Assembly (NCBI GenBank): GCA_905233215.1 | Contig: CAJODC010000036.1 | Span: 1 to 34,540 of the forward strand | From: an uncultured Synergistales bacterium | GTDB lineage: Bacteria; Synergistota; Synergistia; Synergistales; Aminobacteriaceae | Reading direction: 5' to 3' | DNA: 34,540 nt | Shown here: positions 1,462 to 24,045 of the stretch, piece after piece | Numbering within the stretch: position 1 is the first letter of the stretch | Layout of the letters: every line of letters begins with the position of its first letter | The notes under the pieces: generated by a model | Database searches by the model: none | Told to the model about the DNA's origin: nothing | What the model saw: only the letters and a program-made list of their open reading frames with translations | Made by a program: the position numbers and the translations under genes

Positions 1462-2736
1462 TTACGGCTTGTTACTCTCTCGCAGTTTCTCTTTCATCTT
1501 CTTCAGAGACTCAAGACGCTTCCTGTAATGAATCTCTCCGCCTTGTTCTGTCGGGTGGTAATACTCTCTTCCCTTCATGCTTTCTGGCAGACACTCCATA
1601 GCCGTTACTCTCTGTTCGTAATCGTGGGCGAACTTGTAGCCCTTTCCATAATCCAATTCTCTCATCAACTTTGTCGGAGCGTTCCTTATGTGCAACGGTA
1701 CAGGCTCGGCCATGCTGTGAAGTGCGTCATTCTTCGCTGTGTTGTAGGCAACATCAACAGCGTTCGACTTAGGTACGATTGACATGTGAATGACAGCCTG
1801 CGCTAAGTTCACGGCACATTCAGGCATTCCGACAAAATGACAGGCATTGTAAGCGGCTACAGCCATTGAGAGAGCATTGGGTTCAGCAAGTCCGACATCT
1901 TCGCTCGCAAATCGTATAACTCTCCTCGCAACATACAAAGGATCCTCGCCAGCCTCAAGCATTCTAGCAAGCCAGTAAACAGCCGCGTCAGGGTCAGAAT
2001 TTCTCATCGACTTGTGCAACGCTGAGATCATGTTGTAATGTTCCTCGCCGTTCTTGTCATAGAGCAATGACTTTCTTGACGTGCATTGTTCGAGAATGTC
2101 AAAAGTAATTTCACCTTCGGAATTTATCGCTGTCATCTCAAGAAGCGATAACGCAGCTCTTGCATCGCCGTCAGCAAAATTAGCGATTGCGTTCAGAATC
2201 TCATCGTCAGCCGTAACATCAAGAAGCGTCAATCCTCTCCGTAAAAGTTTCACGATCTCGTCAGCCGAAAGAGGTTTCAGCACAAAAACCTTACAGCGCG
2301 ACAATAAAGCCCCGTTAATCTCAAACGATGGATTTTCTGTCGTTGCTCCAATAAGAATGATGCTTCCTCGTTCAACAAACGGTAAAAACGCGTCCTGCTG
2401 TGCCTTGTTGAAGCGGTGAATTTCATCAACAAACAAAATCGTTCTAGTACCGAAATTTTTGTTAGTGTCAGCTTGCTTCATTACCTCTCGGATTTCTTTT
2501 ATTCCGCCAGTTACGGCTGAGAAGGTTACAAATTCGGCCTGAGTTTTTCGGGCGATTATTCCGGCGAGTGTAGTCTTTCCGACACCGGGAGGCCCCCAGA
2601 AAATCATCGAGGGTATTCGGTCGCTGTCGATAATTTTCCTCAATATCTTTCCGGGTGCTACTAGGTGAGACTGTCCGGCGAAATCGTCAAGGCTTTGAGG
2701 CCTCATTCTCGCCGCTAATGGTTCTTGTGTCAGCAT
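1462..2736 (-). CDS. rarA: Replication-associated recombination protein A (RarA/MgsA), AAA+ ATPase
   Basis: A clamp-loader-like AAA+ ATPase acting at stalled replication forks. Near the N-terminus is the family signature RMRPQSLDDFAGQSHL, then Walker A GPPGVGKT (about residues 48-55), Walker B with DEIHRF (about 103-108), the sensor-like GATTENPSFEIN, and the C-terminal tetramerisation region ending in GKGYKFAHDYE and YYHPTEQGGE-like segments. At about 424 residues it is full length. The ATG at 2736 overlaps the TGA of the upstream acetyltransferase gene by one base (TGATG), suggesting translational coupling; an in-frame TTG at 2739 is the alternative. No terminator is evident between this gene and fbaB downstream. 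Confidence 0.95.
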   Translation of the reverse strand: MLTQEPLAARMRPQSLDDFAGQSHLVAPGKILRKIIDSDRIPSMIFWGPPGVGKTTLAGIIARKTQAEFVTFSAVTGGIKEIREVMKQADTNKNFGTRTILFVDEIHRFNKAQQDAFLPFVERGSIILIGATTENPSFEINGALLSRCKVFVLKPLSADEIVKLLRRGLTLLDVTADDEILNAIANFADGDARAALSLLEMTAINSEGEITFDILEQCTSRKSLLYDKNGEEHYNMISALHKSMRNSDPDAAVYWLARMLEAGEDPLYVARRVIRFASEDVGLAEPNALSMAVAAYNACHFVGMPECAVNLAQAVIHMSIVPKSNAVDVAYNTAKNDALHSMAEPVPLHIRNAPTKLMRELDYGKGYKFAHDYEQRVTAMECLPESMKGREYYHPTEQGGEIHYRKRLESLKKMKEKLRESNKP

Positions 2737-3320
2737 CAATCTATAGTCTTGATGACTTTACACGGATTCCCTGCGGCCAAAACGCCTGACGGAATATTTT
2801 TTGTTACAACGCTTCCTGCGCCGATAACACTGCCGTCCCCGATTGTTACGCCTCCGATAACTGTAACGTTGCTCGAAAGCCAGCAGTTGTCGCCAATCGT
2901 TATGGGCTTGCCGTACTCAAGCTGAATGATGTTGCCGTTCTCGTCATTGCGGGCGTTACGTTCCTGCCATCGTAACGGGTGCATAGGTGTCAGAAGTGAT
3001 ACGTTCGTTCCCAGCATGACATTATCGCCGATATTGACCGGGCATATGTCGAGTATCGTTGTCCCGAAATTTGCGTAAAAATTTTTCCCGATGTGAATAT
3101 TTATTCCGTAGTCGAAAAATATATGTCCCTGAAAATACGCTTCATGATCCGAATAAGGCAGAAGCTCACGGAGAATCTTGTAGCGTTCTTCCTCGTCAGT
3201 GTCAAAAAGTTTGTTGTACATCATGCAAAGCCTGTGAGCCTTCGTCCGTAACAAGTACAATTCATCATCAGCAGGATTGTATAACTCACCGGCGGTCATT
3301 TTTTCTCGTTCGTTCAACAA
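2736..3320 (-). CDS. Maltose/galactoside-type sugar O-acetyltransferase
   Basis: A left-handed beta-helix acetyltransferase that moves an acetyl group from acetyl-CoA to a sugar hydroxyl. It aligns with E. coli Maa/LacA: N-terminal EKMTAGELYNPADDEL, then hexapeptide repeats including FFDYGINIHIGKNFYANFG, LDICPVNIGDNVMLGTNVSLLTPMHP (with the catalytic-type His), IGDNCWLSSNVTVIGGVTIGDGSVIGAGSVV and the closing AAGNPCKVIK. About 194 residues, usual family length. The start is one of several in-frame TTG codons (3326, 3320, 3317); an AAAGGTGA site abuts 3326, so 3320 or 3317 has better spacing. The substrate cannot be read from sequence. The gene overlaps rarA by one base. Confidence 0.9.
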   Translation of the reverse strand: MLNEREKMTAGELYNPADDELYLLRTKAHRLCMMYNKLFDTDEEERYKILRELLPYSDHEAYFQGHIFFDYGINIHIGKNFYANFGTTILDICPVNIGDNVMLGTNVSLLTPMHPLRWQERNARNDENGNIIQLEYGKPITIGDNCWLSSNVTVIGGVTIGDGSVIGAGSVVTKNIPSGVLAAGNPCKVIKTID

Positions 3321-3410: not shown

Positions 3411-4775
3411 ATGGTTCAAGGTTCTATGTTGGTAGTAATTCTTGTTGTTGCCATTATCTTAATGGTACTCCTCATCTCCAAGATGAAGTTTCACCCGTTC
3501 GTTGCGTTATTCGCTGTGGCTCTGGCGATGGGACTGGCTGTCGGAATGGCACCGGCTAAAGTTCTCGACACTATACTGAACGGTTTTGGCGGAACTTGCA
3601 GGGGTATCGGCATCGTTATTCTTTTGGGTACGATAATCGGAGCGATGCTCGAAAAGTCGGGAGCTGCTTTCACGATGGCCGACTCGGTATTGAAGGTTGT
3701 CGGCGAAAAACGGCCTGCCCTCGCAATGAGTCTCATCGGCTGGGTAGTGTCAATCCCTGTATTCTGTGACTCAGGCTTCGTAATCCTCTCATCGCTCAAC
3801 AAGTCATTGGCACGCCGGAGCAAAGTCAGTCTGTCAACAATGGCAATCGCTCTCTCAACAGGTCTCTATGCCACTCACACTCTCGTACCTCCTACACCGG
3901 GCCCGATAGCAGCCGCCGATAAACTTGGCGCAGACTTGGGAATGGTCATCATGTGGGGTATAGCAGTGTCAATAGTCTCGGTCTTAGCTGGCTATATCTA
4001 CGCTTTGATTGCCGGGCCGAAACTGCCTGTACCTTTCGACACAAACGCTGAAGAAGGCGTAACCTATGACTCGCTCAAAGCAAAATACGGTAAATTACCG
4101 TCAGCGTTTAAGTCATTCGCTCCGATTCTTGTACCGTTGATTTTGATCGCTTTCAGTTCGTTCATCAGTTACCCCTCAACACTCGCTAAGATTGGCGGAA
4201 AAGAGTCAACACTCTTCATCGTTTCGTCATTCTTGGGCAGTCCTGTAATCGCTTTGTCGATAGGCGTGATACTGTGCTTCTTCCTCGCTCCTTTGACTGA
4301 GGAAGTAACGAACGGCTGGATCGGCGCAGGTGTCAAAGACGGTGCCAACATCATCATGATAACGGCAGCAGGCGGAGGACTTGGCGCGGTAATTTCAGCG
4401 TCAGGCGTTGGACAGTACATCGGCGAGGCTCTTTCGTCATACAACTTCGGGATATTCCTTCCGTTCATCATTGCAGCAGCGTTGAAGACGGCTCAAGGTT
4501 CGTCAACAGTCGCAATCGTAACGACAGCCGAAATCATCGCTCCCATGTTAGCGTCATTGGGACTCGGTTCACCGATGGGCGGAGTCTTGGCGACTCTGGC
4601 AATCGGAAGCGGTGCAATGGTGGTATCACATGCTAACGACTCGTACTTCTGGGTTGTGACTCAGTTCAGCGACATGGATTTGGGAACTGCGTATAAGGCT
4701 CAGACGATGGCGACATTGATTCAGGGAGTCGTGGCAGTGCTGGCGATTTACGGAATATCACTCTACATGCTTTAA
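3411..4775 (+). CDS. GntP-family permease (gluconate/organic acid:H+ symporter type)
   Basis: An integral membrane transporter of 454 residues made almost entirely of hydrophobic helices. Family hallmarks are the N-terminal LISKMKFHPFVALFAVALAMG, GFGGTCRGIGIVILLGTIIGAMLEKSGAA, PVFCDSGFVILSSLN, THTLVPPTPGPIAAA, KTAQGSSTVAIVTTAEIIAPML and the near-C-terminal SHANDSYFWVVTQFSDM. Members carry gluconate, fructuronate, glycerate or related acids; the substrate here is not decidable because no sugar-acid catabolic gene is adjacent. The ATG follows an AAAGGGG ribosome site. It is monocistronic, with an extended -10 promoter before it and a strong hairpin after it. Confidence 0.92.
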   Translation: MVQGSMLVVILVVAIILMVLLISKMKFHPFVALFAVALAMGLAVGMAPAKVLDTILNGFGGTCRGIGIVILLGTIIGAMLEKSGAAFTMADSVLKVVGEKRPALAMSLIGWVVSIPVFCDSGFVILSSLNKSLARRSKVSLSTMAIALSTGLYATHTLVPPTPGPIAAADKLGADLGMVIMWGIAVSIVSVLAGYIYALIAGPKLPVPFDTNAEEGVTYDSLKAKYGKLPSAFKSFAPILVPLILIAFSSFISYPSTLAKIGGKESTLFIVSSFLGSPVIALSIGVILCFFLAPLTEEVTNGWIGAGVKDGANIIMITAAGGGLGAVISASGVGQYIGEALSSYNFGIFLPFIIAAALKTAQGSSTVAIVTTAEIIAPMLASLGLGSPMGGVLATLAIGSGAMVVSHANDSYFWVVTQFSDMDLGTAYKAQTMATLIQGVVAVLAIYGISLYML

Positions 4776-7582: not shown

Positions 7583-8299
7583 TTGCCCCCAGAATACGAT
7601 AACGAACTGGAATATTTTTACGACCCTGAGGAATTTCACAGGGAAGTTGTCTACGTAGGAGTCGACTCGCCCGAAGCATATTCACGGCAGCAGGCACGTG
7701 ATGCCGACAAGAGAGCGATTGAGACTTTCGGAATACCGAGCATCTTGCTCATGGAGAACGCTGCACTGTCGGTGATACGTGAAGTCAAAGAGTACATGGT
7801 ATTCGCTGTAGTCTGCGCTCCCGGCTCAAACGGCGGAGACGGTCTGGCAATAGCCCGGCACTTGTGCATAATGGGAAAGGACGTTCGAGTCTACATTCTC
7901 GGCGATCCCAAGAAGGGCAGCAATGATTTTCAGACCAATCTCAAAATAATGAGCCGACTCGCTCCCGAAGTCCTGAACACTGTCAACGATGAAAATTTTG
8001 ACGAGTTCGAGAGTGCGTTGAAAGGCTGTGAGGCTTGCATAGACGCAATTTTCGGAACTGGCCTCAATCGTCCTGTCGAAGGCATCTTCAAACGAGCAAT
8101 CGAGGCAATGAACACATTAACATCTCACATTGTCGCTGTCGATATTCCTTCTGGGCTTGACTGCGACACAGGCGAGGAGCTTGGCGTTGCTGTGAGGGCT
8201 GCCAGAACTGTAACGTTTCACAGAATGAAGAAGGGATTAGACATCTCGCCTCAATTCGGAGGAGATGTGATAGTTTCATACATAGGTATACCAAATTAA
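7583..8299 (+). CDS. nnrE: NAD(P)H-hydrate epimerase (YjeF N-terminal domain)
   Basis: Epimerises damaged NAD(P)HX so that the S-form can be repaired by a dehydratase. Family motifs are QQARDADKRAIETFGIPSILLMENAA near the start, PGSNGGDGLAIARHL (nucleotide and K+ binding region), CIDAIFGTGLNRPV and IVAVDIPSGLDCDTGE. The protein ends at 238 residues, so it has only the epimerase half; bifunctional NnrE/NnrD proteins carry an ADP-dependent dehydratase behind it. The dehydratase must be elsewhere or absent. The start is TTG at 7583, placed by GGAGGAG seven bases upstream; the N-terminal tail of about 25 acidic and aromatic residues before the conserved region is unusual. Confidence 0.88.
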   Translation: MPPEYDNELEYFYDPEEFHREVVYVGVDSPEAYSRQQARDADKRAIETFGIPSILLMENAALSVIREVKEYMVFAVVCAPGSNGGDGLAIARHLCIMGKDVRVYILGDPKKGSNDFQTNLKIMSRLAPEVLNTVNDENFDEFESALKGCEACIDAIFGTGLNRPVEGIFKRAIEAMNTLTSHIVAVDIPSGLDCDTGEELGVAVRAARTVTFHRMKKGLDISPQFGGDVIVSYIGIPN

Positions 8300-22649: not shown

Positions 22650-23021
22650 ATGAGCGAAGAGAGAAAATTCATCTGTGTGTCGTGTCCTTTGGGCTGTGGC
22701 TTGACGGTAACGCTTGACGATTCGGGCGAAGTAACGAAAGTTGAGGGCAACACATGCGCTAGGGGCGAGAGCTACGCAAGATCTGAAGTGAAAGATCCTC
22801 GCCGTGTATTTGCGTCAACAGTGAGAGTCAAGGGCGGTAAACTTCCTGTGTGCCCTGTGAGGAGCAAGACACCTGCGCCGAAGGGAAAACTTTTCGACAT
22901 CACCAGAGCGGTAGCGGCTCTTGAGGTTGAAGCACCCATTAAGATTGGGCAAGTTTTGATTCACAATGTCTGCGGTACTGACGCTGATATTGTAGCAAGC
23001 AGAGATTTAGAAGCTGTGTGA
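22650..23021 (+). CDS. DUF1667 small cysteine-rich redox protein
   Basis: A 123-residue protein with Cys-rich motifs ICVSCPLGC near residues 8-15, GNTCARGESYA and LPVCPVRSKTPAPKG, matching the DUF1667 family that accompanies FAD dehydrogenases in glp operons. The four to five cysteines suggest a bound metal or Fe-S centre passing electrons from the two flavoproteins; this is inference. It starts 13 nt after the preceding gene with an AAGGTGAG site and is the last gene of the operon, closed by a strong terminator. Confidence 0.85.
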   Translation: MSEERKFICVSCPLGCGLTVTLDDSGEVTKVEGNTCARGESYARSEVKDPRRVFASTVRVKGGKLPVCPVRSKTPAPKGKLFDITRAVAALEVEAPIKIGQVLIHNVCGTDADIVASRDLEAV

Positions 23022-23030
23022 ATAAATTAA

Positions 23031-23063
23031 CCCCCTGTGAAAGCGCAGGGGGGATTTTTTTTT
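23031..23063 (+). terminator. Strong intrinsic terminator of the glp operon
   Basis: CCCCCTG (23031-23037) pairs with CAGGGGG (23046-23052), loop of eight, followed by nine consecutive T residues. It separates the operon from the convergent toxin gene. Confidence 0.9.
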
Positions 23064-23068
23064 GCTCT

Positions 23069-23533
23069 TCACTGACTGAGAGCGTCAATGATTTTCTTGA
23101 TGTCTGTTAATGTTATTTTTATTCCCTTTTTGTACATGGCCATAACTTTTCTGACTTTCTTACCGATTTCTTCTGAAAGTTTATTGTCAATAGTAACCTC
23201 AACAGTTCCCTTATCGATTGTGTACACCTCTGAAATCAATTCTTCGGTAACAGGGCATAAATTCTGAATGAGGAAAGCTCTCTTTTTACCGTTGACAAAG
23301 CCGAACACAATACCGTCATAACTGGAATATTTCTTAATTTTTTCATCGTAGATTGCCTGATACTTTTCGAGCTGTGATGAAATGGGCACCATCATGAAAA
23401 ATCTGTCATAATCATAACAATAATAACAAGGGCGGTTGTGATGGCCTTCCTTGTTGCCCATCAAATTGCAATCTGGAAATTTCTCGTAGTACTCATCACG
23501 AATGAAATAAAATCGCTTGTCCTTTAACAGCAT
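23069..23533 (-). CDS. Type III toxin-antitoxin endoribonuclease toxin, CptN/TenpN-like
   Basis: A 154-residue protein resembling the CptN/TenpN branch of type III toxin-antitoxin toxins, which cut RNA and are held inactive by their own repeat RNA. Recognised pattern: KFYFI-type opening (RFYFIRDEYYEKFPD), NLMGNKEGHHNRPCYYCYD, MVPISSQLEKYQAIYDEKIKK, the mid-protein YDGIVFGFVNGKKRAFLIQNLCP and a basic Lys-rich C-terminal helix. The context is the expected one: degenerate 46-47-nt repeats and a terminator hairpin directly upstream, then AGGAGG and the ATG. Lys-rich, A+T-rich coding and local base use unlike the neighbours suggest horizontal acquisition. The family is assigned from recalled consensus, so CptN versus TenpN is open. 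Confidence 0.78.
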   Translation of the reverse strand: MLLKDKRFYFIRDEYYEKFPDCNLMGNKEGHHNRPCYYCYDYDRFFMMVPISSQLEKYQAIYDEKIKKYSSYDGIVFGFVNGKKRAFLIQNLCPVTEELISEVYTIDKGTVEVTIDNKLSEEIGKKVRKVMAMYKKGIKITLTDIKKIIDALSQ

Positions 23534-23546
23534 AATAGATCCTCCT

Positions 23547-23577
23547 AAAAAAAAACAGGCCTCAAATCGAGAACCTG
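23547..23577 (-). terminator. Attenuating terminator between antitoxin RNA and toxin gene
   Basis: On the minus strand CAGG/CCTG (23577-23574 and 23559-23556) plus an inner CTC/GAG pair form a hairpin, followed by nine T residues (23555-23547), then AGGAGG and the toxin ATG. Type III systems use such a leaky terminator to make antitoxin RNA in excess over toxin mRNA. Confidence 0.85.
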
Positions 23578-23683
23578 AAATATAAGTGTCCCGACCATTT
23601 ATCAGTTCGCATATCGGGGAGCGAAAATATTTGTCTCTGTACCTTTTGTTATTACGCCGATATACAGTCCCGGCGAAAGTGTC
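23547..23683 (-). ncRNA. Type III antitoxin RNA with ~46-nt tandem repeats
   Basis: Read on the minus strand, three units begin with GACAC (23683), GAGAC (23637) and GACAC (23590), spaced 46 and 47 nt. Units 1 and 2 each carry a hairpin at the same place: CGCCG/CGGCG in unit 1 and TTCGC/GCGAA in unit 2, different sequence but same pairing, which looks like covariation. GACACTT is identical in units 1 and 3. The transcript would start near the first unit and end at the attenuating terminator before the toxin gene. Short A-rich linkers (AATAACAAAAGG, GATAAATGG) follow the hairpins. This is the layout of CptI/ToxI antitoxins. Confidence 0.7.
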
Positions 23684-23686
23684 TTT

Positions 23687-23714
23687 ATTTTATCACATCT
23701 TGTCGCAGCAACAA
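23687..23714 (-). promoter_or_regulatory. Promoter of the type III toxin-antitoxin locus
   Basis: TTGTTG (23714-23709), a 16-nt spacer and TAAAAT (23692-23687) on the minus strand. The start would fall within a few bases of the first antitoxin repeat. The -35 overlaps the inverted repeat TCTTGT/ACAAGA (23698-23703, 23711-23716). Confidence 0.55.
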
Positions 23715-23718
23715 GAGT

Positions 23719-23724
23719 TATAAT
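23719..23724 (+). promoter_or_regulatory. Candidate -10 for the five-gene membrane/adenine deaminase operon
   Basis: A perfect TATAAT lies 46 nt before the TTG start at 23770. I see no good -35 at standard distance; the TCTTGT/ACAAGA inverted repeat occupies that place, so the two divergent units share a compact control region. Confidence 0.35.
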
Positions 23725-23769
23725 TATCCCCAAGACTAACACTAAATTTTTTCACGGAGCTGATTCATT

Positions 23770-24045
23770 TTGCGCATCGTAAACACTCAGGTCGTTCTCG
23801 GTCTTTCCGTTTGGATTCTCGGTTTTGCTTTCATGGTCATGGGCTGGCTTGTCGGCGAACTCTCAGAAAAATGGGGGAAAATTCCCTCGAAAATTCTCTA
23901 CAGAATCGGTGTCGTAATCGTCGGCGTTCCCGTCATTATAATGCTCTGGAAAGTCTCAGCACTCCTCTACGTCAACCGCTTCCAGATCTCAACATACATT
24001 AACAGCGCATTCCAGTTCATTCAGGACGCAGTGAAAGTACTCTAA
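23770..24045 (+). CDS. Small two-helix membrane protein of unknown function
   Basis: A 91-residue protein I do not recognise. It has two hydrophobic segments, about residues 8-29 (VVLGLSVWILGFAFMVMGWLV) and 45-66 (RIGVVIVGVPVIIMLWKVSALL), joined by a basic, Lys-rich loop. The start is TTG at 23770, with a modest GGAG site upstream. It lies two bases before the CPBP protease gene, so both are likely co-translated and the protein may act with it in the membrane. Confidence 0.65.
   Translation: MRIVNTQVVLGLSVWILGFAFMVMGWLVGELSEKWGKIPSKILYRIGVVIVGVPVIIMLWKVSALLYVNRFQISTYINSAFQFIQDAVKVL

Follow-up and report, generated by a model that had tools for sequence, protein, structure and literature searches.

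Architecture of the Locus

The window, a stretch of 34,540 nucleotides of contig CAJODC010000036.1 from an uncultured Synergistales bacterium, carries on its minus strand a toxin gene of the CptIN family preceded by a two-unit RNA antidote, the carrier being a gut (rumen-type) bacterium. The toxin gene, cptN (23069..23533), encodes a 154-aa endoribonuclease assigned to the CptN family by NCBIfam, phmmer and an AlphaFold2 (AF2) model, and the minus-strand ORF 23533..23069 is indeed present, as an earlier sequence-only reading of this DNA had stated. Between the antitoxin array and the toxin lie (i) a terminator hairpin (CAGGU...CUC/GAG...CCUG, 23556..23577), (ii) an attenuator run of nine T (23547..23555), and (iii) the toxin ribosome-binding site AGGAGG (23541..23546), ahead of the ATG, all as that reading had described them. 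Hairpin and T-run together fold with an MFE of -8.7 kcal/mol (z -2.1); as in CptIN systems, a Rho-independent terminator thus separates antitoxin and toxin on one strand.

Upstream of the array, a candidate weak promoter (23687..23714, minus strand) comprises TTGTTG (23714-23709), a 16-nt spacer and TAAAAT (23692-23687), and would place the RNA start at approximately the first GACA. The sequence proposed earlier as a -10/-35 pair is thus there, but it matches the consensus at only 3/6 and 5/6 positions, and the consensus scan does not report it. Downstream lies a bidirectional terminator (23031..23052) common to the toxin and the convergent gene at 22650-23021. The surroundings comprise ordinary chromosomal-type genes, with no obvious prophage.

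The CptN Toxin

The window toxin scores 164.8 bits against the NCBIfam CptIN equivalog NF047359 (cut-off 90), the outcome of the HMM search that the sequence-only reading had suggested as a check, and matches CptN from Eubacterium rectale (PDB code 4RMO; Rao et al. 2015, PMC4627078) with an E-value of 4.9e-23 in phmmer. The two proteins are 33% identical over 147 aligned residues and alike in predicted fold. The AF2 model (pLDDT 88.4), computed with 13 relatives alongside the window protein, finds its best match in 4RMO (Foldseek TM 0.81; VIA Z 20.5, rmsd 2.2 over 147 residues), followed in VIA by ToxN and AbiQ with Z about 14, and predicts the CptN/ToxN fold characteristic of the CptIN family. 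Pfam returns just a sub-threshold DUF6240 match for the window protein and, up to E 10, no match to ToxN, the sign expected of a ToxIN member, and PADLOC gives zero model matches on the window; membership in CptN is therefore carried by the NCBIfam score, the sequence match to the PDB entry and the fold. On this same evidence, CptN is preferred and an assignment to TenpN or ToxN is rejected, which leaves standing only the first half of the "CptN/TenpN-like" label originally given to the protein. The ToxIN systems (ToxN_Pa, 2XD0; ToxN_Bt, 4ATO; AbiQ, 4GLK) resemble the window locus in type III layout and toxin fold, but their toxins are only 14-21% identical to the window toxin, and they display 34-36-nt repeats and a heterohexameric complex.

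The serine pair S52/S53 and Tyr104 of the window toxin occupy the corresponding positions of 4RMO; K57 and R34 hardly vary across the toxin family. A difference from the E. rectale enzyme resides in Asp81 and Ser85, which specify the adenine that is cut and are replaced by Asn81 and Arg85 in the window toxin, with the arginine beside the serines replaced by Gln54; cleavage specificity may therefore differ.

The Antitoxin Units

The pseudoknot of the E. rectale antitoxin, CptI_Er, follows the order S1, a one-base L1, S2, S1', an A-rich L2, and S2' (PMC4627078). A search for this arrangement upstream of the window toxin discloses exactly two units on the minus strand, each predicted to form an H-type pseudoknot as in the crystallised CptI. 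Unit 1, 48 nt long and of the "GGA-type" (23632..23679), comprises S1 (CGCCG 23675-23671 / CGGCG 23659-23655), L1 (GGA 23670-23668), S2 (CTGTAT 23667-23662 / GTACAG 23642-23637) and L2 (TAATAACAAAAG 23654-23643), its RNA reading CGCCG-GGA-CUGUAU-AU-CGGCG-UAAUAACAAAAG-GUACAG. Unit 2, 45 nt long and CptI_Er-like (23587..23631), comprises S1 (TTCGC 23625-23621 / GCGAA 23610-23606), L1 (TC 23620-23619), S2 (CCCGAT 23618-23613 / GTCGGG 23595-23590) and L2 (CTGATAAATG 23605-23596), its RNA reading UUCGC-UC-CCCGAU-AU-GCGAA-CUGAUAAAUG-GUCGGG. Both S1 and S2 are rewritten with compensation between the units, and pairing of the 5' strand of one unit with the 3' strand of the other fails (1-2/5 pairs for S1, 3-4/6 for S2). 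The tandem pair occurs in 0 of 2000 dinucleotide shuffles and is unique in the window when both strands are scanned.

The sequence-only reading had correctly recognised that CGCCG/CGGCG in unit 1 and TTCGC/GCGAA in unit 2 are differing stems in the same position, taking each unit for a hairpin; the S2 stems, which turn each unit into a pseudoknot, had been missed. Its three units of 46-47 nt reduce to two full units followed by a short third boundary, the supposed third unit being just a boundary motif between unit 2 and the terminator. The boundaries, read then as GACAC/GAGAC/GACAC, have GACA in common, at 23683, 23635 (instead of 23637) and 23590, with spacings of 48 and 45 nt; the first GACA (23680..23683) is the probable 5' end of unit 1.

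Tandem H-type pseudoknots of about 45 nt, as in the CptIN family, are thus present (48 and 45 nt), and near-identical direct repeats, a usual but non-defining CptIN trait, are absent, units 1 and 2 being 42% identical. The published type III definition (PMC5086642) asks that repeats be arranged in tandem, and in its structure the window array is of this kind; near-identity of the units is not decisive for membership, because other toxin-bearing CptIN loci also lack it. The ungapped direct-repeat finder reports no repeat in the window because the units are too diverged, and they yield no signal in nested RNA folding (z -0.3 to -0.6), as may be expected since the units are pseudoknots. Rfam yields no family at the gathering score, and nothing but chance matches in the antitoxin region.

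The likeness to CptI_Er comprises the 45-nt H-type pseudoknot with its S1-L1-S2-S1'-L2-S2' order and the succession of repeats, terminator and toxin. In addition, unit 2 has AUAAAUGGUCGG in common with CptI_Er, and A29 and A31-A33 of CptI_Er, part of the A-minor twist, are kept in both window units; the kink base U30 is retained in unit 2, whereas unit 1 has C there. On the other hand, the window units, of 48 and 45 nt, are distinct from each other in S1 and S2, and their boundary is GACA where that of CptIN_Er is UUGA.

Covariation and Unit Types across Relatives

CptIN-type loci with the same toxin family and pseudoknot units were gathered from Synergistota genomes, from Bacillota and Fusobacteriota plasmids, and from IMG/VR, and at least one pseudoknot unit is found at every toxin-bearing relative with upstream DNA examined, as expected if the repeat block belongs to the system. 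With the toxin matching a type III family, neither finding named in advance as telling against the sequence-only reading came about. In a structure-blind MAFFT alignment of 27 units of other loci, the window being excluded, the pseudoknot shows 87.9% standard pairs and two-sided changes in 10 of the 11 pairs. The covariation score of these 27 units, 0.62, compares with 0.25 for shuffles and at most 0.16 for slid partners, a comparison that is not fully independent, since a pair search had supplied the units in the first place and the curated pseudoknot list had been partly assembled in this way. A covariance model from which the window was left out recovers unit 2 as its top match in the window (E 2.4e-5) and misses unit 1, so that the search proposed with the original reading succeeded for one unit of the two; unit 1 is supported by the pseudoknot search and by its orthologues in L002, L029, L075 and L076. 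Weak matches of the RNA model elsewhere in the genus (G006, G023, G019) were set aside as chance, with no array in the stretch examined.

The identity of neighbouring units spans 18% to 100% (26 comparisons), and many arrays contain similar units with a few compensated pair differences, mostly in S2, whereas the window array holds two types. Among toxin-bearing loci, a two-type array with a GGA-type unit 1 is found only at the window locus, at L002 (G025, same genus as the window; toxin 45-47% identical to the window toxin) and at L029 (IMG/VR; toxin 46-47% identical). Compared between these three loci, the first units are 73-78% identical over their whole length, and their loops 93-100%; the two units of one and the same array are 25-44% identical. 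The exact pattern of the three first units occurs in 3 of the 188 Synergistota genomes; these three belong to the genus of the window, and every occurrence is at these toxin loci. From sequence comparison, unit 1 is a lineage separate from unit 2, and the two-type array was kept and not homogenised, since the unit-1 loops remain 93-100% identical despite toxin identities of about 46%. The toxin tree groups the window with L002 (90/91); to hold all three two-type loci as one clade takes 2 changes, with 1 change in 34% of bootstrap trees. Because L029 is not firmly grouped with the other two, common descent and array transfer are both possible. The two distinct unit types held side by side are a new antitoxin variant, a sharper sense of what the sequence-only reading had proposed.

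Other arrays of the family depart in different ways. Those of a Virgibacillus plasmid (L014:587-702) and a Peribacillus plasmid (L038:619-690) display a different CptI architecture, a heterogeneous array in which each unit, about 35 nt long, runs directly into the next, with single-stranded tails almost absent and most stems differing. Elsewhere in the Synergistota (L023 in G175, L024 in G133), toxin genes with stops or frameshifts still have recognisable pseudoknot units upstream.

Distribution and Likely Movement

A clear CptN gene is present in 3 of the 43 genomes of the genus (G000, G003 and G025), a further toxin match in G023 (L017) being discarded as spurious-looking, with five stops. 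The neighbour gene (window 22650-23021) is present in 35 of the 43, and at 29/29 other loci examined the toxin is absent within 1.5 kb beside it. The toxin-antitoxin block of G003 (L009) is almost the same as window positions 23455-23790, the only differences over about 300 nt being a missing T and a change in codon 2, and about a quarter of the adjacent gene differs, with a sharp edge in identity at the divergent gene start (about 23790) between these two species of one genus; the G003 contig stops inside the toxin gene. Transfer of the block between the window species and G003 is likely, the alternative being an assembly error.

CptI Units in Phage Contigs

Orphan CptI units occur in four IMG/VR phage contigs (L075, L076, L082 and L083), a phage identity backed by IMG/VR classification, a PHROG exonuclease match, a Clp-type protease and a cell wall hydrolase. 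The unit-1 pattern retrieves from IMG/VR two further contigs with toxin-less two-unit CptI arrays on the minus strand, L075 (122.7 kb; 1193-1290) and L076 (23.8 kb; 3551-3650), whose array is identical to the host antitoxin of G025 in 98 of 108 aligned columns (about 91%). A second pattern retrieves one complete unit each from L082 (83 kb; 7820-7868, minus strand), a relative of the L075 and L076 phages in which the unit lies before the same gene, and from L083 (181 kb; 2362-2410, plus strand), near a tRNA-Trp gene, with RNA-model E-values of 6e-13 and 5e-12, respectively. In L076, the same non-coding stretch also contains a third pseudoknot-like unit (about 2935-2985, minus strand) before a 359-aa gene, with the sequence AGCG-T-CGCGAC-CGCT-AAAGATAAAAATA-GTCGCG, followed by CTACAAATG and a terminator hairpin.

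A CptN profile finds no toxin in G201 (L075), G203 (L082) and G204 (L083) and is positive in three control contigs; a second profile finds none in G202 (L076), in a control-free run. The contigs with orphan units are probably fragments, beyond which a toxin could sit. Five related phage contigs (L088, L089, L090, L092 and L093) lack a unit in the DNA preceding the homologous gene, which makes the element accessory in these phages. The window array itself has no match in the GenBank phage or plasmid collections, nor its unit-2 pattern in IMG/VR. A precedent for type III antitoxin sequence borne by a phage is the pseudo-ToxI of phage TE (Blower et al. 2012, PMC3475682), whose 1.5 repeats in the wild type fall short of one full unit, a difference from the IMG/VR contigs, which hold complete CptI units with no toxin found. 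Judged from sequence, the orphan arrays suggest natural decoys that would disarm CptIN.

Proposed Mechanism and Biological Meaning

A CptN toxin preceded by two CptI pseudoknots and a terminator bears out the type III toxin-antitoxin reading given to this DNA from its sequence, and the window locus is a CptIN member beyond reasonable doubt. We consider it highly probable that this chromosomal type III locus, with its two pseudoknots, leaky terminator and cptN, operates in the following manner. The locus, whose expression, processing, stoichiometry and toxicity we infer, would give a single transcript comprising the two CptI pseudoknots, the leaky terminator and the cptN message, the terminator serving to keep the antitoxin in excess over the toxin. 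CptN, a predicted endoribonuclease of the MazF/ToxN fold, would cut its own antitoxin after GACA into the 48-nt unit 1 and the 45-nt unit 2, and the processed units would bind CptN and block its active site. In the complex, two toxin molecules and two RNAs probably form a ring, and it may contain one RNA of each type because the units are distinct, long-kept types. When transcription stops, through phage infection or loss of the locus, the antitoxin would drop and CptN would cleave RNA.

As to the role of such a system, that the locus is mainly a selfish stabilisation or addiction module, and not phage defence, has a chance approaching even. CptIN_Er stabilised a plasmid and did not block more than 200 coliphages (PMC4627078), and both the near-identical G003 block with its divergent flank and the rarity of the locus in the genus fit mobility; against this stand the orphan CptI arrays in phage contigs, which are most simply read as counter-defence. 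The corresponding proposal, that CptIN acts here in phage defence through a specialised mixed A/B RNA complex and that phages carry stand-alone array or single-unit decoys neutralising CptN, is put forward tentatively, as something short of probable. The mechanism would also have to be amended if the locus were an ordinary CptIN with a decaying array, unit 2 functional and unit 1 a drifting relic. One CptI_Er repeat suffices for full antitoxic activity (PMC4627078) and the family covariance model passes over unit 1, but both unit 1 stems are perfectly paired though both are rewritten, and the unit-1 type, with other compensated stems, holds the first position in L002, L029 and the phage arrays of L075 and L076; since a relic would not keep its pairing, this course of events is unlikely. 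That the toxin is another MazF-fold RNase, with upstream hairpins forming an unrelated leader or attenuator, is highly improbable. The AF2 model does resemble MazF and CcdB chains (VIA Z 8-10), but 4RMO scores much higher, the equivalog cut-off is passed, and the tandem CptI pseudoknot lies upstream with covariation across relatives.

Type III antitoxins have been described as one repeated unit, whereas the chromosomal CptIN locus of the window keeps two, with stems rewritten but compensated. Two-type arrays across toxins about 46% identical constitute a ready experiment on what CptN reads, whether loops and tails or stem sequence, and bear on whether the CptN ring requires two different RNAs. 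According to a review, the CptIN systems tested have shown no anti-phage activity (PMC5086642). The toxin-free phage CptI arrays, in turn, make the anti-phage question of CptIN directly testable, with both the decoy and its toxin partner named.
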